DNA from: Hydractinia symbiolongicarpus
Lineage: Eukaryota; Cnidaria; Hydrozoa; Anthoathecata; Hydractiniidae
Direction: 5' to 3'
NCBI RefSeq assembly: GCF_029227915.1
Contig: NC_079882.1
Span: 17,622,501 to 17,686,500, forward strand
Length of the DNA: 64,000 nucleotides
A model generated the notes under the pieces. It had not been told where the DNA came from. It did not search any database and saw only the letters and a program-made list of their open reading frames with translations. Made by a program: the position numbers and the translations under genes. Below are positions 1,690 to 51,701 of this stretch, in pieces. Every line of letters begins with the position of its first letter. Position 1 is the first letter of the stretch.

Positions 1690-2028
1690 ATGGCGAAACA
1701 AAGTAACACACTTTACATGAAAGAGCCTCACACGGCATTATTCATTGGTCCCACGGGTTGTGGAAAATCTAAACGTGTTGTAAAATTATTAGAAAATGAA
1801 TACTTTGATCACTTTGATTTCATCGTGATTATATGTCCAACATTAAGATGGAATAAAACATACAGAGAACAAAAATGGTTTTGGACTGATAAATTCGTTA
1901 TTTTAATTGAGCCGGAAGGTATGTTATATGAATGGATTAAGAAAATGGACTTTTTCTGTGCTGGATACAAAACATTTTTTTGTTTTTTGTTACAAGAGTC
2001 TTGTAACAAAGCTATAAGAATACTATAG
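1690..2028 (+). pseudogene. ATP: genome-packaging ATPase, truncated after Walker A (element A)
   Basis: The ATG at 1690 lies 4 bp after the capsid stop. The product begins MAKQSNTLYMKEPHTALFIG and has a clear Walker A loop, GPTGCGKS, at about residues 20-27, followed by VIICPTLRWNKTYRE and FVILIEP. This is the start of an FtsK/HerA-like (A32-type) packaging ATPase. Homology ends near LYEWIKKM (about 1945); the rest of the ATPase, including Walker B, is absent and the frame runs into a hairpin. The B copy also breaks shortly after the same point. In related elements this enzyme would pump DNA into the capsid; this copy cannot. Confidence 0.7.
1986..2010. terminator. junction hairpin, 12-bp arms
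   Basis: Perfect palindrome TTTGTTACAAGA / TCTTGTAACAAA with a 1-nt centre. It lies at the 3' end of the truncated ATPase, overlapping its residual frame. Same architecture as the other junction hairpins. Confidence 0.6.
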
Positions 2029-2171
2029 GCTCTTGCAAGACTGCTATAAGACTGCTATACAGCAAATTTCAACAAGCTCATAAGAAGATAGCAAACTCTT
2101 ATACAGCAAATTTCAACAAATTACAGCACAGATACAAGAAGATATAAGAAAATTACAACAGATATAACAAA
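2011..2171 (+). repeat. leader with direct repeats
   Basis: The 160 bp before the next gene hold two copies of TATACAGCAAATTTCAACAA (near 2055 and 2100) and several shorter CTATAAGA/GATATAAGA variants. No coding potential. It may be a promoter or leader region or deletion scar replacing the rest of the ATPase. Confidence 0.4.
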
Positions 2172-2788
2172 ATGATAGAATATGTCAACTTCATGCTATT
2201 AAGCATCCTACTGAGCTTTTGCTATTTTTGTATTAAAAAATACCTCTCCCTAATAAAAATGGTGGAAACAGCAATCGATAATTTAATTGGACATGATATT
2301 CCAGGTCAATTTCCACCACCACCCGAGGATGATAAAAAGCAAAAATTGCTCGAGTGTGTGTTAACTGGAAATAGCAAGCTATACCTAGGGAAAATGTATA
2401 CGGAAGAGCAAATTCAAAAGCTCAAAGATGAAGAGGTAAAAAAACTTTTTAGTATCTATGAAGCTAAACTATCAGGTCAGATGGTGAAGTCCTTAGGGCA
2501 ATCATTCACATGTATTCTATGGGAGCTTGTACAGTCTTAGGAATAAACAATCAAGATGCATTGAGCAATGACCTGGAAAATGACCCCTTCTTAAACTCTA
2601 CCCTTCAAAGATTCACATGCGACTTGTATTATAAATTCGGCTCATTATTAGCACCATTCAGTGTTGGTCTTATTACCGGAAGGCATTATATCAATGGAAG
2701 AAATTTAAACACAAATAATATAAATATAGCAGATAATAAAAATGTCAGAGGAACAGACCCCCATTCAAGTGACAACGAAGAACCCTAA
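2172..2788 (+). pseudogene. TM-anchored protein, frameshifted (element A)
   Basis: Two overlapping frames (2172-2540 and 2510-2788) together match one gene also seen at 41359-41943 and 52722-53150. The N-terminus is a membrane segment (FMLLSILLSFCYFCIKKYLS) followed by a charged region and the conserved C-terminal block NDLENDPFLNSTLQ...GSLLAPFSVG, which parallels EEDPIIRDSMTDLG...GRCLAPLLV in element C. The frameshift is at about 2510-2540. No known domain. Conserved position directly before the GKRLAE protein suggests a structural or membrane-associated role, but function is unknown. Confidence 0.6.
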
Positions 2789-3098
2789 AAAGGTTGAAGC
2801 AGGTAAAAGGTTGGCGGAATACAACCGTAAAAAGCGAGAAAAATTAAAACAACAGTCGATAACACAGACACAAACACACTCATCTCTTAAAGAAAGTGGA
2901 GAGGCAGATTCTACCACCAAACCAAATGAAAAGCCTATGAACTGCGCCATAGGTGGAATAATAGCTCTCAGTTTAGTTGGTGGCTTTGCTTATTTTGTGT
3001 ATAAAAAGAAAGACCAAAATACCAAGCCAAATAGTGTACCTTCCCCTCCGCAAAAATTTAAAATACCTGTGAAAATAAATAAACTTGAAATGGAATAA
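2742..3098 (+). CDS. small basic membrane protein with GKRLAEYN motif (element A)
   Basis: 118 residues, start ATG at 2742 preceded by TAATAAAA. Residues 21-28 are GKRLAEYN, inside a strongly basic block (NPKKVEAGKRLAEYNRKKRE). A Ser/Thr/Gln-rich linker follows, then one membrane segment at about residues 66-87 (CAIGGIIALSLVGGFAYFVY) and a lysine-rich tail. It overlaps its upstream neighbour in another frame and is intact. Four homologues occur in the window, always between the TM-anchored protein and the short xGKKxL protein. The basic motif could bind nucleic acid or act as a nuclear signal; that is inference. Confidence 0.65.
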   Translation: MSEEQTPIQVTTKNPKKVEAGKRLAEYNRKKREKLKQQSITQTQTHSSLKESGEADSTTKPNEKPMNCAIGGIIALSLVGGFAYFVYKKKDQNTKPNSVPSPPQKFKIPVKINKLEME

Positions 3099-3336
3099 AA
3101 GGATAATCCTGCAATATATAATCTCACAATATATAATAACATGGACATCGGTCGTCTGCGTTTTCGCTATCGGCTATTCGATGCTAGGAAAAAAGGTGTT
3201 AAAAATGTCACCTCCCTCAATTCAAAAGTTTGATTTGGAAGATACTGGAAAACTAGTTGCTATTGTTGCTGCTAGTGAAATAACAAGAGAATACTTAATT
3301 AAGCAAAAGATTTTACCTGAAAATATCAATATCTAA
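3085..3336 (+). CDS. short conserved xGKKxL protein (element A)
   Basis: The frame contains a hydrophobic stretch (TWTSVVCVFAIGYSMLGKKVL) and the block FDLEDTGKLVAIVAASEITRE, which aligns with MDTNHVLKMVAYFAAGRASRE at 42485-42739 and a partial copy at 51871-52046. The expected ATG is missing in this frame, so the N-terminus is probably decayed; homologues begin at a position equivalent to about 3100. It overlaps the end of the GKRLAE gene by 14 bp and stops 2 bp before the next ATG, a compact virus-like arrangement. Function unknown. Confidence 0.5.
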   Translation: MKWNKRIILQYIISQYIITWTSVVCVFAIGYSMLGKKVLKMSPPSIQKFDLEDTGKLVAIVAASEITREYLIKQKILPENINI

Positions 3337-3338
3337 AT

Positions 3339-3761
3339 ATGGCTTCAATTGCAATGATGTTGGGAGGTGCTTTAGCTAACGCTTTAGCTTTCACAGGATC
3401 AAGCTATCTCTTTTCAAGTTTATCCAAAGACAGAATCGATAAGGAAAGAAAGCGACATGATTTAGCAGTTGAACAATTACAAAAAGCCCAGGTTTTATGG
3501 CAACAAAAAAGACAAGGGAGAATAGACTTTATCAATAAGCAGCTCAGACTTGAAAAGAAAGCTCAAGGCAAATTCATAGAATTAAACGATGCAATGTGCG
3601 AATATAGCAGAGTGTTTGGAGATAAACTTGAACCTTTACCACGGGAGCCTGTATTGAGCGACTTTTATACACCGAGTCAGGATCAACACGAAAGGGAATT
3701 GGCATTTATCGCGCTAAGTATGATCGGTGTCGGTGGTGCTGTGAGGTATTTTGAAAGATAA
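3339..3761 (+). CDS. conserved N-terminally hydrophobic protein (element A)
   Basis: 140 residues, intact. It begins MASIAMMLGGALANALAFTG, a hydrophobic Gly/Ala-rich N-terminus, continues with a charged helix (KERKRHDLAVEQLQKAQVLW) and ends with LSDFYTPSQDQHERELAFIA and a hydrophobic tail. Homologues are at 49664-49950 (MATLAIMAGGALINALAFSG ... LSDFFTPSKQQTDGELTFIV) and a C-terminal remnant at 24264-24375. In B and C the gene sits between capsid and integrase; here it follows the xGKKxL protein. Two membrane segments around a coiled region suggest a virion membrane protein, but no known family is recognised. Confidence 0.6.
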   Translation: MASIAMMLGGALANALAFTGSSYLFSSLSKDRIDKERKRHDLAVEQLQKAQVLWQQKRQGRIDFINKQLRLEKKAQGKFIELNDAMCEYSRVFGDKLEPLPREPVLSDFYTPSQDQHERELAFIALSMIGVGGAVRYFER

Positions 3762-3778
3762 ACATGGGGAGCAAAAAC

Positions 3779-3803
3779 TATGTTACATGTATCATGTAAC
3801 ATA
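3779..3803. terminator. junction hairpin between convergent genes, 11-bp arms
   Basis: TATGTTACATG / CATGTAACATA, perfect, 3-nt loop. Lies 17 bp after the + stop at 3761 and 15 bp from the - stop at 3819. Confidence 0.7.
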
Positions 3804-3818
3804 TAAGCTGTAAGAGCA

Positions 3819-5099
3819 TTAACGCTTTGTCATGAGATAGGTGTATATCAGACCTCCGATTCCAACTACCAAAGCCCACAGGTTTTGACTCAACCAACCC
3901 ACCACTTCTTTCGCTCGATTGAGTATCCATGACACGATGGATCCTAATATGCCTGGTAGAGCTGCAGCGGCTTTACCCGCCAGCCTTCCCGGGAGAGACC
4001 CCAACGCCTCCAACTTGTTTTTTATCCATTCCTTTGCACCGTCCTTTTTATCATCACCCTTGTCAGGATTTTGTGAGTGACTTGTTGACCCTCCAGCTCC
4101 AGGTAACAAAGCTTCCACAAGGACACCAATAGCCATGCCAAAAGCTGTCAGAATGCTAACGATTGTGATACCTTGTTCACGGAATAATGTTCGTATCTTT
4201 TCACCCAATGTGGTATCTTTGTTGAGGACTTTAGCAATGGTTTCTCTTATGCTCGTAACCTGACTGTTTAATTTACCCTTGAGAATATCGATACTTTCCT
4301 GTCTAGTTTTCAACCCATCGTTTATTCTTTTCATTCTATCCTTAACTTCCTCTCTCTGTTCATCTGTGTATGTTGTATCATTTGCCATTTCTTCCAACTT
4401 GTTTTTCTCTCTATCAATATGCTGTTCTAGCTGAACCTTTTTTGCGACTTCACTCTGAAGACTTCCTCGTATGTTTCTCAATGCTTTATCCAATCCTAAC
4501 AATTCACGCACAGGATATTCAAATAGATCATCAGTCCGAGTTGTTTCATGATCGATTGATGATTGGTGAACCAGATCTTCCGTACTATCACTTATATTTT
4601 CAATAATTGTATCCAGCTCAATGTCAGTTGCATTTGTTATTCTAGACGATGAAGGTAGTTCTTCTTGTATTTTGTTTAGCTTAATTGCTTCTCGTGTAGA
4701 CAAATTATTCTCAGGTATATCAAACCCTAAATTACGCAGCCTTTTCTTGCCTAATATTTCTGCTATAGTACCAGTACTCCTTAGTCTTTCATTGTTTGTC
4801 GTCAATGGTTCGTTACGGCCCTTGTAGTATAATTCACCATCTCTAATTTCAAACAGGTCGGTATGTAGCCCCTCAGGGTTTTGCTGAAGTTTTTCTGTTA
4901 ATCTATCATACAGCCCTTCAACTATTTCTTTCAAAACCCTAGTATTCAGACTGAGACCTCCGAATGATGTTTCTTTTTCACCTGATGTATGTATTTGTAC
5001 GCCTGTACGGTCTCCAGTGGGTATGAGAGGAAACGTCTCATCTGTTGTTTCATCTGGCCTCCCATGGTCTTCAAAAGTGTCAATGTCAATGTCCGTCAT
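3819..5099 (-). CDS. coiled-coil multi-pass membrane protein (element A)
   Basis: 426 residues, uninterrupted. The N-terminal third is acidic and polar (MTDIDIDTFEDHGRPDETTD), followed by FEIRDGELYYKG and LGKKRLRNLGFD. A long charged coiled coil spans about residues 205-300. It ends with KIRTLFREQGITIVSIL (first membrane segment, about 313-337), a short Gly/Asp linker, and LAGKAAAALPGILGSIVSWI plus NLWALVVGIGGLIYTYLM (two further segments). Homologues are at 25378-26682 and 47421-48661; the FREQGITI...LAGKAGAALPGI core is the best conserved part of the window. It is common in these elements but its role is unknown; a virion membrane or attachment-type component is one possibility. Confidence 0.7.
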   Translation of the reverse strand: MTDIDIDTFEDHGRPDETTDETFPLIPTGDRTGVQIHTSGEKETSFGGLSLNTRVLKEIVEGLYDRLTEKLQQNPEGLHTDLFEIRDGELYYKGRNEPLTTNNERLRSTGTIAEILGKKRLRNLGFDIPENNLSTREAIKLNKIQEELPSSSRITNATDIELDTIIENISDSTEDLVHQSSIDHETTRTDDLFEYPVRELLGLDKALRNIRGSLQSEVAKKVQLEQHIDREKNKLEEMANDTTYTDEQREEVKDRMKRINDGLKTRQESIDILKGKLNSQVTSIRETIAKVLNKDTTLGEKIRTLFREQGITIVSILTAFGMAIGVLVEALLPGAGGSTSHSQNPDKGDDKKDGAKEWIKNKLEALGSLPGRLAGKAAAALPGILGSIVSWILNRAKEVVGWLSQNLWALVVGIGGLIYTYLMTKR

Positions 5100-5160
5100 T
5101 TTACTTATTTAGAGGGTAGTTTTTCTCTTTTTTAATAAGATAATTTCTCTCTAAAATAAA
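5100..5160. promoter_or_regulatory. divergent intergenic region
   Basis: 61 bp of AT-rich sequence separates two divergently transcribed genes starting at 5099 (-) and 5161 (+). It must contain both start regions. TTTTTTAATAAG and CTAAAATAAAA occur on the + side; on the - side CTAAATAAGTAAA precedes the ATG. Confidence 0.45.
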
Positions 5161-5769
5161 AATGAGTTTTAAGATTTATCCAAAGTTACCCACTGCTCCT
5201 GAGTATTCGAGTGAGCAAGACAAGTTTAACACAAGTATAGTGAATTCTCAACTTGAAGAGTTGATAAAATTAAAAAACAAATTCAACACCAAATATGAGA
5301 AATACAACAAAGTACTACACCGATTCACCGATTAATGCTTTTAAATGTCAGCTCAAGCGCTTTAACCATTAGCTCTGGTATTGGTTCAATAGCAACAGGC
5401 GCTACTCTTATTGAAATTCCCATTTCTGTCGGATTAGGTGGCGTGGCCCTAGCCGGCTCTATTTCCGCTAGCATTATTACAGCGTTGATTAAAAAATATC
5501 AAAAGAAACTCGACAAAGCTATGAAATTATATGATGTTGTAACATCTGCAATTGCTGTGTTTGAAACCACTATCTCACAAGCATTAAATGATGGAAAGAT
5601 TACCCACAAAGAATTTCAAGCTTTGGGTGGTATATACTACGAAGCTCTGGAAAAGATGACCAGAACAGATAGAAAGATGGAGAGTGAAACACGCAGTCAG
5701 TTTGAGAAAAGTTTAATGGCGGAAATTCAAAATCTAAAAAAGACGTTAAATCCAGAACAAAGTTCGTAA
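5161..5769 (+). pseudogene. two-helix membrane protein with in-frame stop (element A)
   Basis: The ATG at 5161 opens a 57-residue segment (MSFKIYPKLPTAPEYSSEQD...) that ends at TAA 5332-5334 and is followed in the same frame by ATG at 5335 and 144 more residues. Homologues at 44899-45552 and 28473-29116 show both parts belong to one protein: a short N-terminus with LP.AP, then a hydrophobic hairpin (here SGIGSIATGATLIEIPISVG and VALAGSISASIIT) and a charged helical C-terminus with ALEKMTRTDRKMES. So the TAA is most simply a nonsense mutation; reinitiation at 5335 cannot be excluded. Role unknown; probably membrane-associated. Confidence 0.6.
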
Positions 5770-5874
5770 TATGTGCTTGTGTACCATTCATATATTTCAT
5801 TTGCTATTTGAAAAATTAATAATTGAAAATGGTATAAAGAGATATAATCGCGTATATATAACCAAAAACAAACA

Positions 5875-6213
5875 ATGGAATTTCCAACAGTTGAAACATT
5901 TGAACAAAACATCGAACAATTTGTTCCAATTATAAAGTGGAGAGAACTACCTGAAAACGTGATTTACCTTGTTAAATCTGTGAGTGTGATAGACACACCT
6001 GCGTCTAAACCTGGTTCTGGAACAGCTATGTATGCAGAGCTCCAAGACATAAAAGGAAATATATATAAGACGTGGTTGCCCTCAAAACTTTGCGTTGAAT
6101 TAAAAGATTATAGTTGGGGCTCTAGGGAAGCCTTTGTCAGATCAAAAGGTCTCGAGCATTCTCAAAAGAATCATGAAAAACAGTTTTTTAATTATGACAT
6201 TATGTGGCGCTAA
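5875..6213 (+). CDS. small conserved protein, possible OB-fold-like (element A)
   Basis: 112 residues, intact, MEFPTVETFEQNIEQFVPII at the start. The middle, LPENVIYLVKSVSVIDT followed by AMYAELQDIKGNIYKTWLPS, is the pattern of small proteins often found beside polymerase and integrase in such elements (a strand-rich segment ending in a [W/F]LP turn). A single-strand DNA-binding OB fold is plausible but is inference. It lies convergent to the integrase with a shared hairpin between the stops. I do not see a homologue in B or C/D. Confidence 0.5.
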   Translation: MEFPTVETFEQNIEQFVPIIKWRELPENVIYLVKSVSVIDTPASKPGSGTAMYAELQDIKGNIYKTWLPSKLCVELKDYSWGSREAFVRSKGLEHSQKNHEKQFFNYDIMWR

Positions 6214-6237
6214 ACCCTGCAAGACAAAATCACAATC

Positions 6238-6262
6238 ATCTTTACTAGAAACAAGTAAAGAT
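6238..6262. terminator. junction hairpin between convergent genes, 9-bp arms
   Basis: ATCTTTACT / AGTAAAGAT with a 7-nt loop, between the + stop at 6213 and the integrase stop (-) at 6286. Confidence 0.65.
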
Positions 6263-6285
6263 ACTTTTTATGTATCGCCCCTTTT

Positions 6286-6957
6286 TCACCAACCTTGCAC
6301 ATAATCAGGAGATAATTCTGTATCTTCAGGTATTAACATCAATTCTTCTTTTACAAAAGCTCGCCTAGGTCCATCTTGAACATAGTACATTACACGGTTA
6401 CCTTGTTGCGCTATTACCTCACGCAATCTTTATGTGTTTTTTGACCATATTCTATCGGTTGCCGTCTCCGCCCATCATCATGCTCTTCACCCGGTTGTAG
6501 TAAATATCTATACAAGCCATTTTTAGGTAATTCTACTTCAGGTGGACAATTCTCTCGTTTAGTAAGAGGCACCTCTTTCATTTTAATAGCCTCTTTTGGT
6601 TTCATACCAATCATCTGCGTCTTTGTATCGTTTAATCTATCAATCAGTTTATACAAATGCTTAACCCATGTAGATGATACCTTTTCCGAATCATTCAGTT
6701 CTTGAGCATCTTGTATTTTGAATAAATTTTTGGCAAGTATTTTGTTCAACGCCTCAACAAAAGCTGTGTGGGTATGCTTATATTTTGTAGTCGCTCTTTT
6801 AATTTCAACCTTATGCTTATCCAACAATTTTGATACATCTGCTTTGAATTCTGAACCATTATCACATTGGAAAGTTTTCGGATAAGTTAATGGTCCAGCT
6901 TTGTAAATGTCTTCAATCATAGCAGCGACCTCTTTGGCTTTCTTAGTCTTCAAAGGT
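6286..6957 (-). pseudogene. INT: integrase, N-terminus deleted (element A)
   Basis: C-terminal two thirds of a retroviral-type (rve, DDE) integrase. Homology to the copies at 50221-50966 and 23250-24240 starts at PLKTKKAKEV and includes FQCDNGSEFK (second catalytic Asp), KRATTKYKHTHTAFVEALNK (catalytic Glu in FVEA), GMKPKEAIKMKEVPL and YLLQPGEEHDDG. The part with the first Asp is gone: at about 6957 the gene runs directly into the antisense of the polymerase N-terminus. A frameshift near 6415 precedes the C-terminal tail (NRVMYYVQDGP...FVKEELM...YVQGW stop at 6286). The enzyme would insert element ends into the genome; this copy is dead. Confidence 0.8.
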
Positions 6958-9900
6958 TGGCCTACACCTACTAGACCTGTGCCAGCGCCGAGACCCACTA
7001 GACCTGTGCCAGCGCCGGGACCTGTACCAGCGCCTAGACCGATGAGGAATGTAAAACCTGTCACAATTATTCCCAGCCAACAAGATATGGATTTGTTTGA
7101 GCAGCAAGAAATGGCTAAAACTAGACCTCAGGTAAAAAGTAAGTTGAATGAATGGAGAGAATGGTTAGTAAATCATGTACCGAAAGTTATAAGGGAGAAA
7201 ACAACTAAAGCTTTCAGAACCATGAAGGATAAGGTTCTGGGTTTATTTAAAAAGGGCAGCGGAGAGAAAGAGGTGGAAGAGGCGGAAGGAGGAAAGGTGG
7301 AAGAGGAAAAACCTTATACTCCTATTGAGGAAGCGTTTGACGGTTCCTACAAAAGGTTCAAGATAAACTCCGATGGGAAGAAGAGCGTCAAAGTCTTTTT
7401 CAAAAGGGTTCAACCTATCGTTAAGAGGTTGATGAGGGGCGTGCTCAAGCAGAAAAAGTCGTTGAAGACTCAGGCGACCTTATGAGTGAAATGGGTAAAG
7501 GAGGAGGAAGGCAATAAAAAGATCTATGTCGATAAAGCGTTCAATAGCTATATGAAGATAATCCATAACAAGGATAACATTTCTGATGTTTTCGATCGGA
7601 TGCGTAATAAGATAATCGAGCAGAAAACCCTGCGCTACCCGCCAGCGGGTTCACAATCGATAAAATCTTGCATATGCATGTGGACTTTTATAAGCTAAAA
7701 TTAACGAGAGGTAGCTCTTATTTACCTGTACCTGTCAATTTCAGTGGGAAGCGATCTGTGATTAACCCTCATAACGAGGATGATGATGAATGTTTCAGAT
7801 GGGCTATTATTGCTGCTCTCAATCATGATAAGATCGATAATCATCCTGAACGAATCTCAATTCTTAAGAAGCATGATAAGTATAACTGGGATGGTCTATC
7901 TTTCCCGATGGCGCTAAATAAAATAGATTTGTTTGAGAGAAGGAATCCTGATATCGCTGTGCATGTTTTAACAAAAGACAGGGTAGGAGGTGTCTATTTA
8001 TGTCGTAAGTCGAAGCATCTTGATCGCAAAGAAACGGTTGTTTTGTTTTTACTGTGCGAGGGGGATAAGAGACATTATATCGCTGTTAAGAACTTGAGCG
8101 GTGTCCTGAGCAAGGCCAACTCGAAGCATGAACATAAAGAAAATTATTGCTTGAATTGTCTCTATGGTTTTTCAAGCGAACAAAAAAGGGATGAACACTT
8201 TGAGTATTGCAAGAATAACGATGCTGCTAAGATTCAACTCCCTAAAGAGGGTAGCACCGTTAATTTTAATAAGGGTCAGTATCAGCTCAAAGCCCCATTT
8301 ATCATGTATGCCGATTTCGAAGCTTTCACAAAAGAGTTGCCTGAAGAAGAGAAAAAATGCGGATCATCCACTGAGAAAGTTGGTAAACATGTTCCCACAG
8401 GTTTCTGTTGTTATAGTAAATTTGCTCATGGTGAAGTTCCAGATCCTCTGACGCCTTACCGTGGTGAAGACTGTGTTTTACGCTTTGTGAATCATATAGT
8501 TTCTGAGGTGAAAAGGTTGTATAACATGTTTCCAAAAAGAAGGATGCAAGATCTCACTGATGAAGAGCTACAAGGGTATAGCTAGTAAATGTCATCTATG
8601 TTTGAATAATTTTAAGAAGGATAGCATCAAGGTTAGAGATCATTGTCATTTTACTGGTAAGTTTCGCGGAGCTGCTCATCGAGAATGTAATATCCGATAC
8701 AAAGTGCCTAATTATATTCCAGTTGTCTTTCATAATCTTAGCGGGTATGATGCACATCTATTTATCAAAGAGCTTGCGAAGCAGCATGGAGAAAAAAATA
8801 TGAGCGTCATCGCTGAAAATAAAGATAAATATATCTCTTTCTCGATGGATGTTAAGGTGGGTGAATACATTGACAAAAATGGAGAGCAAAAATGGCTAGC
8901 AGCTTGGATTCGTTGGTAAACAATCTATCTGATGATCAGTGTAAAAATCTTCGAAAATTCTTCAATGATGATGAGCAATTCAAAATAATGAGAAGAAAGG
9001 GTGTATACCCATATGAATATGTTAATTCATTCAATAGGTTTAATGAAACTAAGCTTCCGGTGAAAGATGATTTTTAAGCAAGTTGAACATGAGTGGTATC
9101 AGTGATGCTGATTATGCGCATGCTCAGAAGGTATGGAAAGACATAAAAGTTGAAAATATGGGTGTTTATCATGATATCTACCTCAAGACAGACGTTCTAT
9201 TGCTTGCTGATGTTTTTGAGACTTTTGGGGAAACATGCTTGACAAACTATAAACTGGATCCTTCACATTTTTACACAGCTCCGGGATTAGCTTGGCAGGC
9301 CTGTTTGAAAAAGACAGAGGTTGAGCTAGACTTGTTGTCCGATATGGATATGTTCCTGTTTATGGAGCGGGGTATTAGGGGCGGTCTCTGTCAGGCTGTT
9401 TATAGACACGCCAAAGCTAATAACAAATATATGGGCGCTAGATATAAGGTGGATGAAGAGGACAGCTATCTCCAGTATCTTGATGCAAACAATCTGTATG
9501 GATGGGCTATGATTCAAAAATTACCAACAGGAATGTTCAAGTGGGTTGATGCTAGTAAATTTACCGCTAAACTCATTTCAAAGTTGGCTGCGGAAAATGG
9601 TGAAGAGGGTTACTTCCTTGAGGTTGATGTGATATATCCAAAAGATCTACATGATACTCATAACGATCTTCCTTTCATGCCCGAGAGGAAGGAGATTAAT
9701 GGCGTCGAAAAGCTGACACCGTGTCTTTCAGACAGGAAGAACTATGTCATTCATATCCGTGCGCTTGATCAAGCGTTGAAGCATGGTCTTGTTCCTGAGA
9801 AGGTTCATAGAGTGCTTAGATTTAAGCAAAGAGCATGGTTAAAGTCGTACATAGATTTTAACACTGATTTGCGTATCAAATCAACAAATGAGGTCGAAAA

Positions 9901-42460: not shown

Positions 42461-42484
42461 ATTTTTTCAAAAATGCTTTAATAA

Positions 42485-42739: not shown

Positions 42740-42750
42740 ACCACCAGATA

Positions 42751-42782
42751 ATTTCTATTTGTCCTTAGGGACAAAGAGAAAT
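42751..42782. terminator. junction hairpin, 14-bp arms with one mismatch
   Basis: ATTTCTATTTGTCC / GGACAAAGAGAAAT, 4-nt loop TTAG. Begins 11 bp after the stop at 42739; the right arm includes the first two bases of the next ATG (42781). Confidence 0.7.
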
Positions 42783-43109
42783 GGAGGAGAGCAAGACATG
42801 TTCAAAATGTAAACACCATCTTACCCTGAACCATTTTAGGATCGGGGGAGATGGTTGAACGCTAAAGCAATGTAATAAATGCCTTGATGCCAACAAGGCT
42901 TCATGGGAACGCACAAGGTGTCCATATCATCGTCAAAAATACCATTGTAAAGACTGTAAGGGTGGTGGGATTTGCACTCATGAAAGGCAAAGGTGCGGAT
43001 GTAAAAATGTGGTTATATCGCTAATGCTGTAATCAATGGACCACGCAAGGCTCTACGTGAAAACAAGGAGCTTATAGCTATCTGTAGGGCCCATATCGTT
43101 CAGGCATGA
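42781..43109 (+). pseudogene. zinc-ribbon/HNH protein remnant (element C)
   Basis: ATG at 42781: MEESKTCSKCKHHLTLNHFR, stop at 42856, then QCNKCLDANKASWERTRCPY and HRQKYHCKDCKGGGICTHER. These match the element B gene at 21727 (CTQCKHYFSLDNFR, CIKCLNVIKASLECTRC). ENKELIAICRAHI near 43055-43095 parallels the region just before the HNH core of B. The HNH core itself is gone and stops are frequent. From 43110 to 43276 another short frame (MIDEEKNLIFDWDDIKAELK) has no clear partner. Confidence 0.55.
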
Positions 43110-43276
43110 AAATGATAGACGAGGAAAAGAATTTGATATTTGATTGGGATGATATCAAGGCTGAACTGAAAAAATCTACACATGCATGCCTATACGTGAG
43201 GTTGGAACATCCTAGGGCCTGGTAAATCCTCGACTGACCACGGTGAAATGCTCTGGGTAAGCATTGGTATATAAAA

Positions 43277-44087: not shown

Positions 44088-44095
44088 GCAGACGC

Positions 44096-44127
44096 TAATT
44101 TTACTACTCTTGTAGGTAGTAAAATTA
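44096..44127. terminator. junction hairpin, 12-bp arms
   Basis: TAATTTTACTAC / GTAGTAAAATTA, perfect, loop TCTTGTAG. Starts 8 bp after the BRO stop. Orthologous to 23198-23229 after the B copy of the same gene; preceding bases GACGC are also shared. Confidence 0.8.
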
Positions 44128-44170
44128 CCACTTTAAAAAAATATATATATACATTGACCCTTTTGGCTGT

Positions 44171-44527
44171 ATGTTAAAAGCCAGTGAAATATTAAAAGAT
44201 GGAAGCCTATGTACAAAAAAAATCAATTTACAGGTACAGACCCTGGAGGGCCACTGCTTCACCAATGTCAGCGTAAAAAAAGGGCGGTACCTCACCACCA
44301 AACTGAAGGATTGGGAGGGCAAGGTCAGAACAAAATTTCACAAGAAAAAGATACCACAAAAAAGCTGCGAGTGTAAGGCTATCATCAAGCTGGCGAGCAT
44401 CTATAACCAAGGGTGCAACTACTACGCACAGACCTACTTGGAAGAGTGTAAATACAAAGAGGTTGAAGGATACGGCGCTTGCTACTTTAGTGACTCTGAT
44501 GGTGATGAGAGTTTCACCGTCTTGTAG
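44171..44527 (+). CDS. conserved protein of unknown function (element C)
   Basis: 118 residues: MLKASEILKDGSLCTKKINL, KKGRYLTTKLKDWEGKVRTK, CECKAIIKLASIYNQGCNYY and an acidic end (CYFSDSDGDESFTVL). The central 80 residues match the C-terminal half of 29200-29772. The N-terminal part of the B protein is missing here, so this may be truncated at the 5' side although an ATG is present. Function unknown. Confidence 0.5.
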   Translation: MLKASEILKDGSLCTKKINLQVQTLEGHCFTNVSVKKGRYLTTKLKDWEGKVRTKFHKKKIPQKSCECKAIIKLASIYNQGCNYYAQTYLEECKYKEVEGYGACYFSDSDGDESFTVL

Positions 44528-44541
44528 GGGCTTGTCGAGGC

Positions 44542-44573
44542 TTTTGGTATATTGTTCATCCAGCATACCAAAA
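44542..44573. terminator. junction hairpin, 9-bp arms
   Basis: TTTTGGTAT / ATACCAAAA, perfect, 14-nt loop. Begins 14 bp after the stop at 44527 and lies 5 bp before the next ATG. Confidence 0.6.
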
Positions 44574-44578
44574 CAAAC

Positions 44579-44842
44579 ATGGAAGCATTGAATAATATGG
44601 AATAAAGTCTCAAGCTACTCCACGATAACAAAGCCCTTCTTCTTCAGGCGATCCGCAAGGCCAAGTACACGGACGTCTCAATACAATCGGATGGCCCCTA
44701 TTGCGAGCCCTGTACCAGGATTAGCTGGCAGAAAAATCTCGAACAATACTCTAGAGAGCTCGCTGAAAAGCAGCGACGTGTCGTACATGACAGTGGTCTT
44801 ATCATCGATCAAGACAGTGGAGAACTGCTCAAGATTGTGTAA
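44579..44842 (+). pseudogene. small protein with one in-frame stop (element C)
   Basis: ATG at 44579: MEALNNME, TAA at 44603, then in the same frame SLKLLHDNKALLLQAIRKAK, SIQSDGPYCEPCTRISWQKN, and RRVVHDSGLIIDQDSGELLK to a stop at 44840-44842. One CxxC pair. Hairpins flank it on both sides, which supports it being a gene unit. No homologue seen in the window. Confidence 0.4.
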
Positions 44843-44845
44843 GGT

Positions 44846-44875
44846 GATCTACTGTGTTGTTCAACACAGTAGATC
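44846..44875. terminator. junction hairpin between convergent genes, 14-bp arms
   Basis: GATCTACTGTGTTG / CAACACAGTAGATC, perfect, 2-nt loop; the longest of the set. Lies 3 bp after the + stop and 23 bp from the - stop at 44899. Confidence 0.8.
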
Positions 44876-44898
44876 CTACAAATATGCGGGCGGAGACT

Positions 44899-45552
44899 CT
44901 AAGTAGACCTGACATACTGCGCAGATTGAAGTTTTTTCAGCAGTTCATCCTTCGCCTCCTCTCGACCTTGCGCGACAAGCTGCTGTTTCTCCCGTTCATT
45001 GATCGAGTCCACGATTTCGCGTGTTCGTTGTCGAGCTTGCTCCTTCAGAACCATGTACTTTTGCTTTTCTTGCATGATTAGGCTAAACTCGTAGTCGCTA
45101 ATGACTCCATTCTCCACGATTCTCGAGATCAAGTCAACGATAGAGTTGAGCTTGGTCTCCGCAAGTAGTCTTATCCCCTCGTGCTTTTTGCTCTTGGCAC
45201 CTAGCCTCTTCCCGGCGTTTCGTAGAGCCATTTGTCTCAGACCTACGGCGATAGTGATCCCACCCATGGCTATGCACAGGGGAGCTCCCAGGCCCGAAGC
45301 CAGCGCCCCTATTCCGACGCCCGAGGTGATGATGCTGATGCTTAACAAGACGTGGTCGCAGAACCTAACCCACGTAACATGCAACTTTACCTTTTTAGCG
45401 ATCTTGTCCCGCTCTTTGATCTCGGCTCGCAAGTACTGCTCAACCTCTTCGATTTCCTTCAGCCTATAGGCCTGTGAACTGTCCTGCTCCTCCTCCGTAC
45501 CCTCGGGAGGTGCAGAAGGTAAGCTCGAGTAAAGCTTAGTAATGTCTGTCAT
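44899..45552 (-). CDS. two-helix membrane protein (element C)
   Basis: 217 residues, intact. MTDITKLYSSLPSAPPEGTE, a charged helix (RLKEIEEVEQYLRAEIKERD), two hydrophobic segments (LSISIITSGVGIGALASGLG and PLCIAMGGITIAVGL, about residues 72-105), then RNAGKRLGAKSKKHEGIRLL and a long charged helical C-terminus (MVLKEQARQRTREIVDSINE). The ATG forms AATAAATG with the stop of the gene before it. Orthologous to 5161-5769 and 28473-29116. Gly-rich paired helices suggest membrane insertion, as in small virion membrane proteins. Confidence 0.65.
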   Translation of the reverse strand: MTDITKLYSSLPSAPPEGTEEEQDSSQAYRLKEIEEVEQYLRAEIKERDKIAKKVKLHVTWVRFCDHVLLSISIITSGVGIGALASGLGAPLCIAMGGITIAVGLRQMALRNAGKRLGAKSKKHEGIRLLAETKLNSIVDLISRIVENGVISDYEFSLIMQEKQKYMVLKEQARQRTREIVDSINEREKQQLVAQGREEAKDELLKKLQSAQYVRST

Positions 45553-46209
45553 TTATTCTATAAGCAAATGCATCGTTATTTCCACGAACAAAACGTTCTT
45601 ATCGTTGTGATACTCGTCTGTCAGCATGAACTCAAGCTTGCCCGTTGAACCCATTAAGGGGAGGTACACAGGAGTGTCGAAGCTCCACGTAAGCATATCT
45701 CCCCAAGCAGTTAACTCCTTCACTGGAAGTATGGCGAGGATTTTCGATTCCTCCCCATTCAGCAGACAATTCATTTTATCCAACTGAGAGCAAACTAGTC
45801 TTGGAGAAGCTTTCGTAGTCGCCCTTGGTAAACAATACCTTATTATCGAAGGGCTGTCCCATACTGTACTGTAGTGGTTGATCGATCACACTGTGCACCT
45901 CGTTAACCCGGAGTCTACAGATTCCGTTCCTGAGTACAAACACTTGAATCTTATTCCCCGCTTGACTATTGACAATAGTCGCAAGATCCTCGATTCGATA
46001 CAAACCCCCACGATCGAGATGAGGACTTCCAAATTTCCGACTTCAGTCGAATTGGACCCAGCCTTATAGATGTTTATCTCACTTTTAGTAAACAGGTGCA
46101 GCCACGTAGGTCGAATGCTGATCGATTTCAGAGCGATCCTCGTGCCCTGCTCTAGACGAGGTTTGAATTTCGTGGGTTTCTCTATATCCGTGACGTGGAG
46201 CTGTCTCAT
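45553..46209 (-). pseudogene. penton-like / minor capsid candidate (element C)
   Basis: ATG at 46209: MRQLHVTDIEKPTKFKPRLE, RIALKSISIRPTWLHLFTKS, INIYKAGSNSTEVGNLEVLI. After a frame change near 45990: YRIEDLATIVNSQAGNKIQV and FVLRNGICRLRVN; after a third break near 45780: CLLNGEESKILAILPVKELT, AWGDMLTWSFDTPVYLPLMG, KLEFMLTDEYHNDKNVLFVE and LLIE. About 218 codons. Alternating hydrophobic and polar residues suggest a strand-rich fold; size and linkage to capsid-like genes favour a penton-type protein. Orthologue at 27828-28471. Assignment is inference. Confidence 0.5.
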
Positions 46210-46225
46210 GTTTCTTTAAGAAAAG

Positions 46226-47396
46226 ATGAAAATTTACTCGTACAACCCGAAGGCAAAGTACAAGCCCAAACAGAGGTGAGTGGCCTCCCGGTGTAACCAA
46301 CTTGGAGCGCCAGGACCTGTACGTGTCTACCACTCAGCATGTTCCCGTGGCCTTCCCACAGTTCACCAAGTACCTCATCAAAGTATCCACTAACCTGTTG
46401 AGCGACCCTTGAGTGAAAATTGGGAGGGGCAAGCCCTGGGCTATTGGAACATACAGGTGAATTTCGCTTGTCATTGCGCGACAACGGCGTTAGGGATCTC
46501 TGCCAAGCACATGAGTGGCTCAATACCCCTCGTTCAATCCATATTCAAGTTCCACGTGTACTACCACATGAGACGTGTTCTCGCGAGGATGAGTGTGCCT
46601 ATGCCCTACGACGACAGCTTTGTCCCATACGAGAACCCCTATTCCACCTCGGGGTATGCGCAAATATGTCGTGAGTACAGTGCGGACCCCAACGCTTTGT
46701 ACAATTTCAAAGCTGTCGTGTCGTCGTTGACAAATGATAGATGGTGGCCTCAAAAGGCTGACGACTGGGCCAAGTTTATCATCCCCACAAGCCAGGGTTT
46801 AACATCGGAAGGCTTGACGAAGCTCAGCGAGAGTATTCACGTTTACGTGATCTTGATACTAGGATCCCAAGCAAGTGCCAAGACCTTCATCCTAGACTCT
46901 AACGCCGATAACTTCACGGCGAGACAGATCCTCCCTCAGAAATTCGAGGCCATGGTTCAACGTGAGGAGAACGCGGGTCGTGACATCAGCGAGTTCTAAA
47001 AGGTGCTCCAGTACGCATGGACTCCGGTAAACTTCGCCGTAATGCCCAGCGTGTACATGCCCCCCTCCAACATGGATCTCCGCATTCGAAAGATTGTAGG
47101 GTACAACAACAATGTTCTGATCTAACGTAGGCGTAGGGGTGGAGCTAGACCTGAATACCAAAGCCTTGAGCTATGCTGTCAAGCATGAGGCAGCCTTCAC
47201 CATACCTCCTAGGCAGACTATCAAGTCAAAGTAAATCACGCCTCATCCTGATATCAGGCGGGATGCAGCTGCCGCATCCCTTCCCAAGGAAGCCCACGGG
47301 CAGCACGAGGATACCAAGGCCGCGTTGGTTACGGTAGGAGTAGGCCTCATCCTAGGCCTATATTGGCTCTTAAGAAGGCTTAGTCTAATGTGTTGA
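46226..47396 (+). pseudogene. putative structural protein with C-terminal membrane anchor (element C)
   Basis: ATG at 46226 (MKIYSYNPKAKYKPKQR) then a stop. Next frames: LERQDLYVSTTQHVPVAFPQ; from 46409 a 196-residue stretch with YWNIQVNFACHCATTALGIS, VYYHMRRVLARMSVPMPYDD, WWPQKADDWAKFIIPTSQGL and FTARQILPQKFEAMVQREEN, TAA at 46997; then VNFAVMPSVYMPPSNMDLRI. The Pro-rich repeats of the B copy are short here. It ends DTKAALVTVGVGLILGLYWL, a membrane anchor, with the TGA (47394-47396) inside a palindrome. The anchor implies the protein sits in a membrane with its bulk outside or inside the particle. Confidence 0.6.
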
Positions 47397-47407
47397 TCAA
47401 CACATTA
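47386..47407. terminator. junction palindrome between convergent genes, 22 nt
   Basis: TAATGTGTTGA / TCAACACATTA, perfect, no loop bases. Contains the structural gene's stop codon and lies 13 bp from the - stop at 47421. Confidence 0.75.
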
Positions 47408-47420
47408 AACGTGAATACGA

Positions 47421-48661
47421 CTACCTCCCTCTCTTCCCGAAGTAAGCCACGACGAAAGCGGCTACGGCAGCGATTGCCATGTAAAGATGCTGGGCTGGGA
47501 ACTCGACATCTCCCGCCGCTACCCTAAAAAAGAAAAAGACGATGCTGCCGATGATCCCTGGTAGTGCCGCACCTGCTCTACCCGCTAGGTACTTGAGAAA
47601 CCGTCCGAGTCTTTCAAGCTGCTTATGTACAAAACCCTTGCCGCCAGCATCTCCTCCAGTACTTCCTGCTACGACACCTGTACTTCCTCCAGTAACAGTG
47701 GGCACGATGGTAGAAATTAGTAGACCCACAGCTGAGATGATACTGGCTATAGTAATACCCTGCTCTTTGAATAGGATCCTGAGTTTTTCGACCAAGGTTT
47801 TATCATCCCCGGCAATCTTGATCAAGGTGTCTTTGATGTGTAGCAGTTGGCTCTGGGTGCTGGAGGAAAGTATACCGTGTGTTTTTAGTGCTTTTTCCTT
47901 AAGATCATGGAGTCCCTCTGGATCTTTCTTGGCCTTGTCTATATCCTTGTCCAATTTGGCTCACTGCTCCTCGGTTACTCCGGGCGCGGCCTTTTCTCCC
48001 TCAAGATCCTTCACTTTGACTTTTACTTTTTCGATCTTGCTGTTGTAAAAGACCATCTTGCTTTCTAATATCTTGATGCTACCATGAATCGTTTTAAGTT
48101 TGCGATCGAGCCTTTTTCGTTGACGCTCCATGAGGGCTTCGCTGCCTGAGGTATCTTTGATAAGGCTCTCCGTCCCATCTCGAACGTTCCCAAGTAGTGG
48201 CAACATTTCGATGTCATCAGCCTTTGCCTTTTCATTGACATTATCCAATTTGTTAAGGAGCCCCCGAGCCATCGTCTTACTGTCATTGTGTGATTGGCAT
48301 AGTCGATAAACCCCATGGCTCGCAATCGATCCTCGCCCAACATCCTCACTATCGCGGAAGCTTTCCTCAGTTCACCATTTTGTTTCGCGAGCTTCTTACC
48401 ATCGTAAAGAAGCTGATTCCCATCGAGTTCAAACTCGTTGTAGAATCTCCCGCTCGGCTCTCCCAGCTCATCACCAAGAGCTTCGTAACGTCTATTAACC
48501 ATCGAATTTTTCACTTCCTCCATCTGCCTTTTCAGGCGTTGACCCTGCTCTTCTGTTGTTAGCGTAGTGCTGGACCGTGGAATATCCTTAGGCCGAAGGA
48601 TCTCGCTCTCACTACTACTCCTCGGGCTCGTCTTGAATATCTTCCTCTGGCGTAAATTCAT
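47421..48661 (-). pseudogene. coiled-coil multi-pass membrane protein (element C)
   Basis: ATG at 48661 (MNLRQRKIFKTSPRSSSESE) follows antisense capsid sequence, so the true N-terminus is probably lost. Then EEQGQRLKRQMEEVKNSMVN, NEFELDGNQLLYDGKKLAKQ and LGEDRLRAMGF; frame break near 48290; coiled coil (QRKRLDRKLKTIHGSIKILE); TGA at 47960; KLRILFKEQGITIASIISAV, FVHKQLERLGRFLKYLAGRA, GAALPGIIGSIVFFFF and a final segment IAAVAAFVVAYFG. Three membrane segments as in 3819-5099. Confidence 0.65.
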
Positions 48662-48681
48662 CTTTGTATGCTGGGTTAATC

Positions 48682-49656
48682 GGCATTTATTCAACCCGCA
48701 GATCTCTACTAATAAACCTGGCAGTATATCGGGACCTGTGGCTCCCCAAGTATGATGCGAGAACAACCTAATTCTGGAGGGAATCAATCCCAACGATAGT
48801 ACCATCAGGGCTCTGCAAGTCAAAGCCAGCGACCATGTCGGCAATGTTGAACAAAAGGCCATCGTGGCGGCGTATGGCAACACTTTTGCCATCCCGCTAG
48901 GGAAGATGTTTGAGTTGACGGCAGATCTACCCTTCTACCAGGCAGGACTCCACGACAGGTTGCAATTCGTACTGCACTTCGCACGGCATAGCGACGTAAT
49001 CAAAGACTGTGGTACGACAGCCTCTGGAAGCACGGCAGCTAAACCAGCTGATGCCACGTATAAGATCACCAACATTGCGCTCGAGTTTGACAAAGTAACC
49101 CACGAGGGTCTCGCGAGCGCTATGATGTCACGATACTCGAGATTGGCCCAGCCCTACGAAATGATCCTCCGCAGCAAGGTTATCACGATGAAAAAAGCCG
49201 ATACCTCCTATAACCTCCAGATCGATACTCCTGAAAGGTGTCCTCCTACTGTTCGTAGACCCCAGCAAAGTGCAAACTGGTGCTAACGAGGTCTTTTACA
49301 ACCCAAACATCGAGAAGATCTCGATCATTGTCGAGGGTGAGCCTAACGAGCTGTATAGCCACGCGATGTTGCCGAAAGATCATCTCGAGCAACATCATCT
49401 CTTCGGGGATGCACATAGCGAAGTGACGATCGGGCAGTTCTTCACGAAAAGATACGCCATGTTTGTTGATTTCCAAGCAACCCCGGACTAAAGCCTCCAC
49501 GGTAGTGGTAGGCCCCTACAACGCCCGTCAGACGGCATAACCTTCCACATGACGAAGAAAGCCGACGGAACCGGGGATATCCGATGCTACGTGTACTTAC
49601 TGCAGGACGCGCAGTTGAACATCTTGGATGGGCGCTTCCACTCTGTGGAATACTAA
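48682..49656 (+). pseudogene. MCP: major capsid-like protein, 5'-truncated (element C)
   Basis: Capsid homology begins near 48715 (RDLWLPKYDA); everything upstream is replaced by the antisense start of the divergent coiled-coil gene. A frame at 48864 has AIPLGKMFELTADLPFYQAG, YKITNIALEFDKVTHEGLAS and KKADTSYNLQIDTP; after a break near 49235, NEVFYNPNIEKISIIVEGEP and FFTKRYAMFVDFQATPD; TAA near 49490; then LQDAQLNILDGRFHSVEY to the stop at 49654-49656. The C-terminal end matches that of A (MDAQLNIQNGEFMSILY). Confidence 0.65.
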
Positions 49657-49663
49657 AATAAAT

Positions 49664-49950
49664 ATGGCAACTTTGGCAATTATGGCGGGAGGTGCGTTGA
49701 TCAACGCCTTAGCATTCTCGGGAAGTAATTACCGGGATAGACTGGTTACAAAAGCAAAGAGAGCTGAAGAGGCAATCCTCAAAGAGCTCGATGAGGGCAT
49801 GCGAGAGTACTATAGCGCCACGATCGAAAAAGCTCCGAAACTATCCGATTTTTTTACACCAAGCAAGCAACAAACTGACGGTGAATTGACGTTTATAGTT
49901 GGCTCCTTGGCCATCCTTGGTTTTCGCGGCGTACAAGTATATGTAAAGTC
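49664..49950 (+). CDS. conserved N-terminally hydrophobic protein, fused to integrase (element C)
   Basis: ATG at 49664 after AAAATAAAT. MATLAIMAGGALINALAFSG, a charged helix (RAEEAILKELDEGMREYYSA), LSDFFTPSKQQTDGELTFIV and GSLAILGFRGVQVYVKS. The central coiled part is shorter than in 3339-3761. The expected stop near 49945 is missing and the frame runs through the hairpin into the integrase, giving one 373-codon fusion. Confidence 0.6.
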
Positions 49951-49979
49951 GCTTTTGACATCTAATAATTGTCAAAAGC
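49951..49979. terminator. junction hairpin, 10-bp arms, translated in the fusion
   Basis: GCTTTTGACA / TGTCAAAAGC, perfect, 9-nt loop TCTAATAAT. Same junction and related arms as 24231-24258. Confidence 0.75.
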
Positions 49980-50966
49980 ACATATCGTTACTTCTGAAAA
50001 AGCAGGAAAGCTACACCTCGGAACATCTTTGGACTGGTCGGAAGGCGATCAAATTGCTCGATGAGCAGAGCGGTCTCTCCAAGAAGAAATCACAACATTG
50101 GTTGACTCGTCAACTGCTCTGGCTCCAACACATCAAGGGCCCGAAACGCATTCAATACCCTCATTTCACAATCACGAAACCGAACAAAATGCATCAGTTT
50201 GACCTTCTCTACATGCCCCATGACAAGCTGTATGGAAACACGTACAAGTATATACTCACGGGCATCGATGTAGCATCGCGCTACAAAGTAGCTAGACCAT
50301 TGCGCACCAAAAAGGCCAGCGAAGTCGCGGACATGCTCAAGGATATATACAAAGCCGGACCTCTCCGTTACCCGAAGACCTTCCAGTGCGACAACGCCTC
50401 CGAGTTCAAGTCTGCCGTGAGCAAGCTGCTAGAGGCCAAGGACGTCGAGATCAAGCGTGCAACTACCAAATACCACCATACTTTCACGGCGTTTGTCGAG
50501 AGCTACAACAACATACTTGCGGAGAGGCTTTTCAAACCCCAAAATGCGCAAGAGTTGGTTTCCGCGGAACAAAGTACCACTTGGGTGAAACACTTGTACA
50601 CCGTCGTTAAGGGCTTGAACAATACCAAGACTGCCATGATGGGTATGAAGCCTTCGAAGGCGATAAAGCTCATGGAGGTCCCACTCGCGAAAAGCGAAGA
50701 ATATCCCGATGAAAAGCCTCTAGCCAAGGATGGTCTCTACTTGTACCTCCTGCAACCTGGGGAAGAGCATGGTGATCAATAAAGACGCGCGACTGACGCT
50801 TAGTGGAGCAAGAAAACATACAGACTCGATCGTATCGTGACTGGTACCCGTCTCCTGTACTATCTCGACAGTGGGCCCGATTGCAGCTTCGTGTCAGAGG
50901 AGTTAATGCTAGTCCCCAAGGATGTGGAAGTACCTCCGGAGCATGTAAAAAAATGGTAAATTTCTC
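49980..50966 (+). pseudogene. INT: integrase (element C)
   Basis: The best integrase core in the window, uninterrupted to 50782: KKQESYTSEHLWTGRKAIKL, SQHWLTRQLLWLQHIKGPKR (N-terminal region), FDLLYMPHDKLYG (first Asp), ILTGIDVASRYKVARPLRTK, FQCDNASEFKS (second Asp), KYHHTFTAFVESYNNI (Glu), MMGMKPSKAIKLMEVPLAKS and YLLQPGEEHGDQ. A frameshift at about 50775 precedes the tail (YRLDRIVTGTRLLYYLDSGP, SFVSEELMLVPKDVEVPPEH) ending at 50966. Its own start codon is not evident because the frame is fused to the upstream gene. Confidence 0.85.
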
Positions 50967-50992
50967 AAGTCAGTTGCCACTTGTGGGCGTAG

Positions 50993-51019
50993 TTAATGTG
51001 AACCTGTGGCTCACATTAA
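50993..51019. terminator. junction hairpin between convergent genes, 9-bp arms
   Basis: TTAATGTGA / TCACATTAA, with inner CC/GG pairs after one mismatch. Lies 26 bp after the integrase stop and 19 bp from the - stop at 51039. Confidence 0.65.
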
Positions 51020-51038
51020 TACTTACCAACAAAAAGTC

Positions 51039-51599
51039 TTAGTCATCCTCGGAGTCCTCAGCGTTGTCGGAGTCAATCGGATGAAGGCGCGTATAATCAT
51101 AAGGATGCAGGGTGTAGAATGGGTAGCCATAGACGATCTCCTTGACAACATTTGACTCGCTATCAAGATCGATGATGTCAACCAATGCTCTGTCCTCTAT
51201 CGGAAAGCTGAGCATGTCGCCAATTTCCTTTAGGTCTGCCAGATCTGAGAGCTTTAACTCAAAAACCTTGATAACCTCGTAGTAGAGCATGCCCCACTTG
51301 ATCACCCCGGCGGAAACAATATGCAGGCCCAGGTGCTCAATATCAGCGTCGAGCCCCTCATCTTCCTCCTCACATGGAACTGTTGCCCACGGCTTTTCAC
51401 CCGATGCTACTCTCTCTAGAAGTTTGTCATCATCCGGATATTCAAACCCCTCGTAGTATAGCCCATTTCTAAATCTAAAATTTTCCAGGCAAGTAGAGCA
51501 ATACCCGGTAGTAGACCCCGCCTTGTTGCAGCATCTCAGCACGGGTACCTGAATGTTGTAAAGATTTCTAAGTTGTCGGCTCTGTACATACGTTTCCAT
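51039..51599 (-). CDS. acidic protein of unknown function (element D arm)
   Basis: 186 residues, intact: METYVQSRQLRNLYNIQVPV, two CxxC-like pairs (RCCNKAG, YCSTCLENF), FRNGLYYEGFEYPDDDKLLE, a middle HLGLHIVSAGVIKWGMLYYE and an acidic tail (DSDNAEDSEDD). No homologue in A or B. Its stop faces the integrase across a hairpin. The Cys pairs could bind zinc. Confidence 0.5.
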   Translation of the reverse strand: METYVQSRQLRNLYNIQVPVLRCCNKAGSTTGYCSTCLENFRFRNGLYYEGFEYPDDDKLLERVASGEKPWATVPCEEEDEGLDADIEHLGLHIVSAGVIKWGMLYYEVIKVFELKLSDLADLKEIGDMLSFPIEDRALVDIIDLDSESNVVKEIVYGYPFYTLHPYDYTRLHPIDSDNAEDSEDD

Positions 51600-51657
51600 C
51601 TTTTTGACATTTGACTACCTTTTAACATACGGTTGAAGGGGTCAAGCAGCATTATCA

Positions 51658-51701
51658 GGCGTGTTTTTGTGGCTTTGATAACCCACAAAAATGCATACGC
51701 C
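51658..51701. terminator. junction hairpin, 9-bp core plus 5-bp outer arms
   Basis: Core TTTTTGTGG / CCACAAAAA (51664-51672, 51683-51691) inside GGCGT / ACGCC (51658-51662, 51697-51701). The outer arm touches the minus-strand BRO stop at 51702. Confidence 0.65.

Follow-up and report, generated by a model that had tools for sequence, protein, structure and literature searches.

Hairpins that act as transcript 3′-end signals have already been published for virophages, giant viruses, and yeast linear plasmids, and they appear to be new for Polintons. Here we describe candidate signals of this kind in three decayed Polinton copies within a 64-kb window of the Hydractinia symbiolongicarpus genome (the window being the whole stretch of DNA analyzed, positions 17,622,501 to 17,686,500 of contig NC_079882.1). 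Copy A spans positions ~1–10,700 of the window, copy B 18,000–30,700, and copy C 38,300–56,300.

The mimivirus "hairpin rule" is reportedly due to Byrne in 2009. Under this rule, transcripts end at palindromes whose sequence is not conserved and that do not follow an AATAAA consensus (PMC4402537). In the Marseilleviridae (Noumeavirus and Melbournevirus), the palindromes are tied to the upstream stop codon, whatever the direction of the next gene (PMC5413956). In the Sputnik virophage, 16 gene ends bear the hairpin known from mimivirus (PMC6723459; see also PMC11172284), and transpovirons likewise have hairpin ends (PMC7031253). One review adds pithoviruses and Iridoviridae to the users of such ends (PMC11814242), and another source lists hairpin users and reports none in medusavirus (PMC8557863). 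The limits quoted in the latter are a stem of at least 13 bp and a loop of at most 5 nt for mimivirus, and a stem of at least 10 bp and a loop of at most 10 nt for pithovirus. In yeast linear plasmids, stem loops lie at a median of 26 nt from stop codons, and mutation and rescue established that they set the 3′ ends (PMC6211774). No description of hairpin end signals in Polintons was found in the literature searched (titles and abstract openings, with subscription journals poorly covered), which agrees with the first-pass annotation of this DNA, whose author knew of none for animal Polintons.

Results

Sixteen hairpins in three Polinton copies

An inverted-repeat scan (loop of at most 20 nt, +1 per pair, −3 per mismatch) recovered all 16 of the palindromes listed in the first-pass annotation, with a single change of coordinate (42218 is better given as 42217). 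Arms measure 8–14 bp and loops 0–14 nt. Fourteen of the palindromes are perfect dyads; the imperfect ones are those at 23198 and 42751, and the weakest is that at 30171–30189. They are listed here without strand, and gene P, gene X, and gene Y are our own labels.

1986–2010, copy A: hairpin, 12 bp arms, 1 nt loop; 20 bp past the homology end of a truncated ATPase-like gene
3779–3803, copy A: hairpin, 11 bp arms; between gene P (stop 3761, +) and a coiled-coil gene (stop 3819, −)
6238–6262, copy A: hairpin, 9 bp arms; between a + open reading frame (ORF; stop 6213) and the integrase gene (stop 6286, −)
23198–23229, copy B: hairpin, 13 bp arms with one T–G wobble; between gene X (stop 23188, +) and the integrase gene (stop 23250, −)
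24231–24258, copy B: hairpin, 9 bp arms; after gene P (stop 24264, −), with the 3′ arm overlapping the integrase start codon (24239, −)
29148–29183, copy B: hairpin, 13 bp arms; between gene Y (stop 29116, +) and a − gene (stop 29200)
30171–30189, copy B: hairpin, 8 bp arms; after a − ORF (stop 30202)
42217–42249, copy C: hairpin, 12 bp arms; starts on the final base of a stop (42217, +) and reaches the following ATG (42248, +)
42751–42782, copy C: hairpin, 14 bp arms with one mismatch; 11 bp past a stop (42739, +)
44096–44127, copy C: hairpin, 12 bp arms; after a second gene-X-like copy (stop 44087, +); similar, with its left flank, to the 23198 hairpin
44542–44573, copy C: hairpin, 9 bp arms; after a stop (44527, +)
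44846–44875, copy C: hairpin, perfect 14 bp arms; between a stop (44842, +) and the gene Y stop (44899, −)
47386–47407, copy C: loopless palindrome, 11 bp arms; across the stop of a structural-type gene (47396, +) and before a coiled-coil gene stop (47421, −)
49951–49979, copy C: hairpin, 10 bp arms; right after the end position of a frameshifted gene P
50993–51019, copy C: hairpin, 9 bp arms; between the integrase gene (stop 50959, +) and a − gene (stop 51039)
51664–51691, copy C: hairpin, 9 bp arms; 13 bp past the homology end of gene X (51705, −)

The number of strong palindromes was compared with that in dinucleotide shuffles (40 per region, in 400-base blocks). At a score of at least 10, the three Polinton regions hold 11 hairpins compared with ~0.7 after shuffling (A, 2 vs. 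0.28; B, 1 vs. 0.20; C, 8 vs. 0.22), whereas three non-Polinton stretches hold one each (expected 0.42, 0.68, and 0.80; total 3 vs. 1.9). At a score of at least 9, the Polinton count is 18 vs. ~3.3. The strong excess is a property of the Polintons, and it comes mostly from region C.

Hairpins lie just past stop codons

Two placement tests were blind to the hairpins and used only open-frame stops (ORFs of at least 100 amino acids) or homology-defined ends, the latter being derived from protein homology between copies and therefore tolerant of frameshifts. With homology-defined ends, 10 of the 18 hairpins of score at least 9 lie within 40 bp downstream, compared with a random mean of 0.5 and a maximum of 5 in 5,000 placements. 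One of these ten, at 54440, marks a break within a decayed polymerase gene, leaving nine at real gene ends. At a score of at least 10, 6 of 11 hairpins lie within the same distance. None of the 18 hairpins in the Polinton regions lies upstream of a homology-defined start. By our reading, three are away from gene ends: 1487 (in a capsid gene), 54440, and 57062 (outside). A third test used 35 stops listed by hand with the hairpins known beforehand, the copy B capsid stop being approximate, and 22 of these have a hairpin of score at least 8 within 90 bp (2.0 expected). The palindromes are enriched just past stop codons and not at starts.

The first-pass annotation has the hairpins beginning 0–31 bp after stops. 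We place the copy C integrase stop at 50959 rather than 50966, with its hairpin 33 bp downstream, and the palindromes at 1986 and 49951, which follow the truncated ATPase-like gene and the frameshifted gene P, have no in-frame stop of their gene just before them.

The direction of neighboring genes also was tallied by hand. Seven of eight convergent junctions carry a hairpin, one per pair as had been proposed, lying between the two stops or across them (the 47396 stop is inside the 47386 palindrome). The remaining pair, in copy B (26212–26668, + and 26573–27805, −), has overlapping homology tails, which is consistent with the suggested deletion of both 3′ ends. By contrast, none of six divergent junctions has a hairpin of score at least 9, and at two of these junctions the homology map shows an overlap, so that there is little room for one. 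The difference gives a Fisher exact P of 0.0023 for a tally made with the hairpins known. Convergence is not required, since 9 of the 16 hairpins are located at tandem or single gene ends.

Hairpin positions recur between copies

The integrase gene and gene P are each followed by a hairpin in every copy. So are gene X in B and, twice, in C, gene Y in both B and C, and the coiled-coil gene in both A and C. No hairpin of score at least 8 is present at the capsid gene end in A, B, or C. The arm sequences had been described as differing. At the integrase end (A–B and B–C) and the gene Y end (B–C), the coding regions align, but the alignment ends short of the hairpins, and the arms there are unrelated. 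The 23198 hairpin of copy B and the 44096 hairpin of copy C, in contrast, seem homologous, with matching differences in the two arms that can be read as a pair of double substitutions or as a single matched change of length, depending on the alignment. The gene P hairpins of B and C also are related in sequence. The hairpin set is therefore in part inherited sequence and in part structure kept under sequence change.

The word CTTGTA is common to the loops of the hairpins at 23198–23229, 29148–29183, and 44096–44127, and TCTTGTAG is found in two of the three. This shared word may reflect descent, because two of those three hairpins look homologous.

Other end signals

The AATAAA polyadenylation signal is not in excess beside the hairpins. 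It occurs near 3 of 23 hairpin segments (2.7 in shuffles), and AATAAA or ATTAAA near 6 of 23 (4.7 in shuffles). When AATAAA is counted on its own, 3 of the 22 hairpin-bearing stops have it within 120 nt (2.7 in shuffles). At stops lacking a hairpin, AATAAA occurs at 7 of 13 (2.8 in shuffles, P 0.006), and four of these seven motifs directly precede an ATG. A second class of gene end marked by AATAAA is possible at these stops, but we do not claim one; the four are read as start-site context and the other three are unexplained.

The sequence following each stem also was inspected on 23 hairpin sides, and no consistent U-tract was found directly after the stem. TTTT occurs within the next 10 nt on 3 of the sides (random 5%, ~1.2 expected), and the mean number of T residues is 2.8 of 10, which is the base frequency.

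Hairpins in distant relatives

Two distinct Polinton-like virus contigs were found in IMG/VR, with polymerase identities of 47% and 43%. One (L007/L009) has a perfect 24-bp inverted repeat with a 54-nt loop (L009:6317–6418) that begins at the stop of a convergent junction and has an RNA fold z of −8.7. This contig holds six repeats of score at least 11 (1.1 expected). The other (L001/L008) has repeated palindromes in the convergent gap 8705/9003, and its genes overlap at the other convergent junction (2246/2232). The L001 part holds three hairpins of score at least 10 (0.7 expected). With longer loops allowed, L001/L008 shows no excess (2 vs. 1.4 at a score of at least 11), so the excess depends on the settings.

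Five further contigs of 3–7 kb, filed under bacterial bins, came from one genome-contig scan. One of them (L002) has a single 16-bp hairpin at 213–253, and in the remaining four, scanned at the sequence level, hairpins are not clearly in excess.

The Polinton copies and their genes

The copies match the features used to recognize Maverick/Polinton elements, as judged from their predicted proteins: each appears to carry a family-B DNA polymerase of the Polinton kind, a retrovirus-like integrase, and a double jelly-roll capsid gene. Polymerase B, integrase, and capsid genes were found in each of A, B, and C. Protein homologs of the capsid and polymerase are numerous. Among the polymerase relatives retrieved, the top match bears PF03175; the copy A polymerase is 94% identical across 98% of the query to a predicted H. 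symbiolongicarpus protein, and the runner-up is from the same species, a similarity that by itself would make this hydroid or a close relative the most likely host. The integrase domain rve was matched in all three copies, in copy A under the curated cut-off. Homologs support the capsid assignment, and the Pfam family Capsid_N was matched only below its cut-off. The principal genes mapped are as follows.

426–1685, +, copy A: major capsid protein gene, open frame; 3′ end without a hairpin of score at least 8
6289–6965, −, copy A: integrase (rve)
7051–10689, +, copy A: polymerase B region, decayed
23253–24242, −, copy B: integrase (rve)
50012–50959, +, copy C: integrase (rve)

The nearest matches of the copy A capsid have ~76%–87% identity. 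They lie mostly on short contigs, one of them from the Joint Genome Institute (P0133), and thus either free particles or hydroid DNA in environmental samples is possible.

Region C contains two very different polymerase B genes, at 38972–41943 (+) and 53143–56130 (−). The left one is 27%–29% identical to the A and B polymerases where aligned. Paralogous cassettes of small genes are located at 41900–42740 (+) and 51741–52988 (−). Judging from this gene content, region C looks as if two Polintons had merged or nested.

Gene starts show a weak signal of their own. TAAA occurs within ~9 nt upstream of the ATG at 12 of 25 starts (6.3 in shuffles, P 0.004), with examples in all three copies (1690, 2742, 5099, 25346, 41359, 42485, 45552, and 52046), and no upstream word of 6–8 bases at these starts rises above shuffles. 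The TAAA–ATG context weakly resembles the TAAATG of poxvirus late genes.

The Polinton copies are surrounded by repeats and a reverse transcriptase (36159–37082). A tandem and inverted repeat family with ~590-base spacing is present at 12563–17563 and 62097–62784, between and beside the copies, and some of its members contain TGACGTCA palindromes.

Discussion

The explanation we favor, with a probability of roughly 60%, is that the hairpins are transcript 3′-end signals of these Polintons, working in both directions as in giant viruses and virophages. We judge 3′-end formation to be the likeliest role because the pattern matches that of the Marseilleviridae and other published hairpin-end systems. 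During transcription of a gene, the palindrome that follows its stop codon closely would fold in the nascent RNA, and the RNA would be ended at the folded hairpin, either through cleavage and tailing or through termination. Since a palindrome reads alike on both strands, one hairpin could serve both genes of a convergent pair. Base pairing would be conserved while the letters remained free to change. The machinery might be provided by a co-infecting giant virus, by a factor encoded in the element, or by a host nuclease. We infer both that RNA ends at the hairpins and how it does so. The interpretation in the first-pass annotation, a 3′-end signal of the mimivirus kind, is partly supported: its anatomical side holds, namely a structure at 3′ ends that is symmetric between convergent genes and has arms free to change.

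The likeness to known systems is partial in each case. As in mimivirus, the palindromes lack a conserved sequence and an AATAAA consensus, and transcripts might also be polyadenylated at them; these elements differ in being located in an animal genome, and no RNA polymerase was found in them. The Marseilleviridae share the palindrome past the stop, the indifference to neighbor direction, and the freedom of letters, but those are giant-virus genomes that encode RNase III and have one validated transcript end, whereas the transcript ends proposed here are candidates. Sputnik is also a small capsid-coding virus with hairpin gene ends, and it is thought to borrow the machinery of its mimivirus helper. 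Virophages have a wider kinship with Polintons, and we know of no helper for animal Polintons. The yeast cytoplasmic linear plasmids pGKL1/2, whose polymerase is protein-primed, have stem loops near stop codons without a shared sequence motif. Unlike the copies described here, they encode an RNA polymerase, produce mRNAs without poly(A), and have a T-enriched tract that is missing from these hairpins. As to dimensions, 10 of the 16 hairpins fall within both pithovirus limits, and two (42751, with its mismatch, and 44846) fall within both mimivirus limits.

A number of observations weigh against a role in 3′-end formation. Hairpins had been said to mark gene junctions throughout the elements, which is too strong: 13 of the 35 hand-listed stops, including the capsid end of every copy, have no hairpin of score at least 8 (best scores 0–7). 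The blind test with open-frame stops is weak, with 8 of 18 hairpins (score at least 9) at −15 to +60 bp compared with 1.84 at random and a random maximum of 9 in 4,000, and with only 3 of 11 near a stop at a score of at least 10. The stop list and the junction tally were compiled with the hairpins known and so are not blind. Weaker palindromes are in mild excess outside the Polintons too; at a score of at least 9 there are 10 vs. ~5.0, about double, with each of the three counts inside its own shuffle maximum. Twelve of the 16 stems are shorter than the 13 bp of mimivirus. AATAAA or ATTAAA lies within 120 nt of 7 of the 22 hairpin-bearing stops, compared with ~3 in random stretches not matched for A+T content. 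A Pfam scan of 20 ORF pieces from this window, in which the copies are decayed, gave no match to RNase III or to a poly(A) polymerase. The two hairpins at 24231 and 42217 overlap the start codon of the next gene, at tandem junctions where a hairpin after one gene necessarily precedes the next. The two Polinton-like virus contigs offer weak, mixed support: the second convergent junction of L009 (1912/1915) has a 2 bp gap and no listed hairpin, and L007/L009 also has a 13-bp palindrome between divergent genes. Finally, the whole data set is one window of one genome with three decayed copies.

Other explanations must accommodate the same data. Termination of the bacterial intrinsic type, as proposed for the yeast linear plasmids, would have a hairpin and U-tract free the polymerase and would leave no poly(A). 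The distance between stop and hairpin here does resemble the median of 26 nt in the yeast elements (PMC6211774), but TTTT follows only 3 of 23 sides and T on average is at base frequency. Because U-tracts are lacking, we discarded intrinsic termination as the main model and consider it quite unlikely. The hairpins might instead protect or regulate mRNAs whose ends are set by ordinary termination further downstream. The computed RNA folds, at −6.0 to −17.8 kcal/mol on the 23 sides, would suit such a function, which does not itself predict one palindrome per convergent pair; nor is there a shared sequence akin to that of the histone stem-loop. A protective role is likewise distinctly unlikely.

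Palindromes also can act at the level of DNA as protein-binding sites or as replication or recombination signals. That 14 of 16 are perfect dyads, that some arm words are common to copies B and C, and that two hairpins overlap the next start codon would all fit, yet the arms are mostly unrelated, the loops vary from 0 to 14 nt, and neither the six tallied divergent junctions nor the positions upstream of homology-defined starts carry a palindrome, which makes a DNA-level function very unlikely. Chance inverted repeats in AT-rich gaps, noticed for their nearness to stops, are favored by the selection of some stops after the event and by the mild excess of weaker palindromes elsewhere in the window. 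This explanation is scarcely credible given 11 strong hairpins where shuffles yield ~0.7, and 10 of 18 at homology-defined ends where 0.5 are expected.

A bolder version of transcript 3′-end formation holds that the ordinary mRNA machinery of the host is not enough to express animal Polintons, and that their 3′ ends are processed by a giant-virus-type system from a helper virus infecting the animal. Polintons would then function as animal virophages. We regard this version as unlikely. The hairpins bear on how animal Polintons are expressed and on whether they are still virus-like. If hairpins do serve as end signals, they would tie Polintons to virophages, giant viruses, and yeast linear plasmids through a shared feature of gene expression, and annotators of Polintons could predict where genes end. 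Whether a helper virus is involved would then become a problem of RNA mapping.

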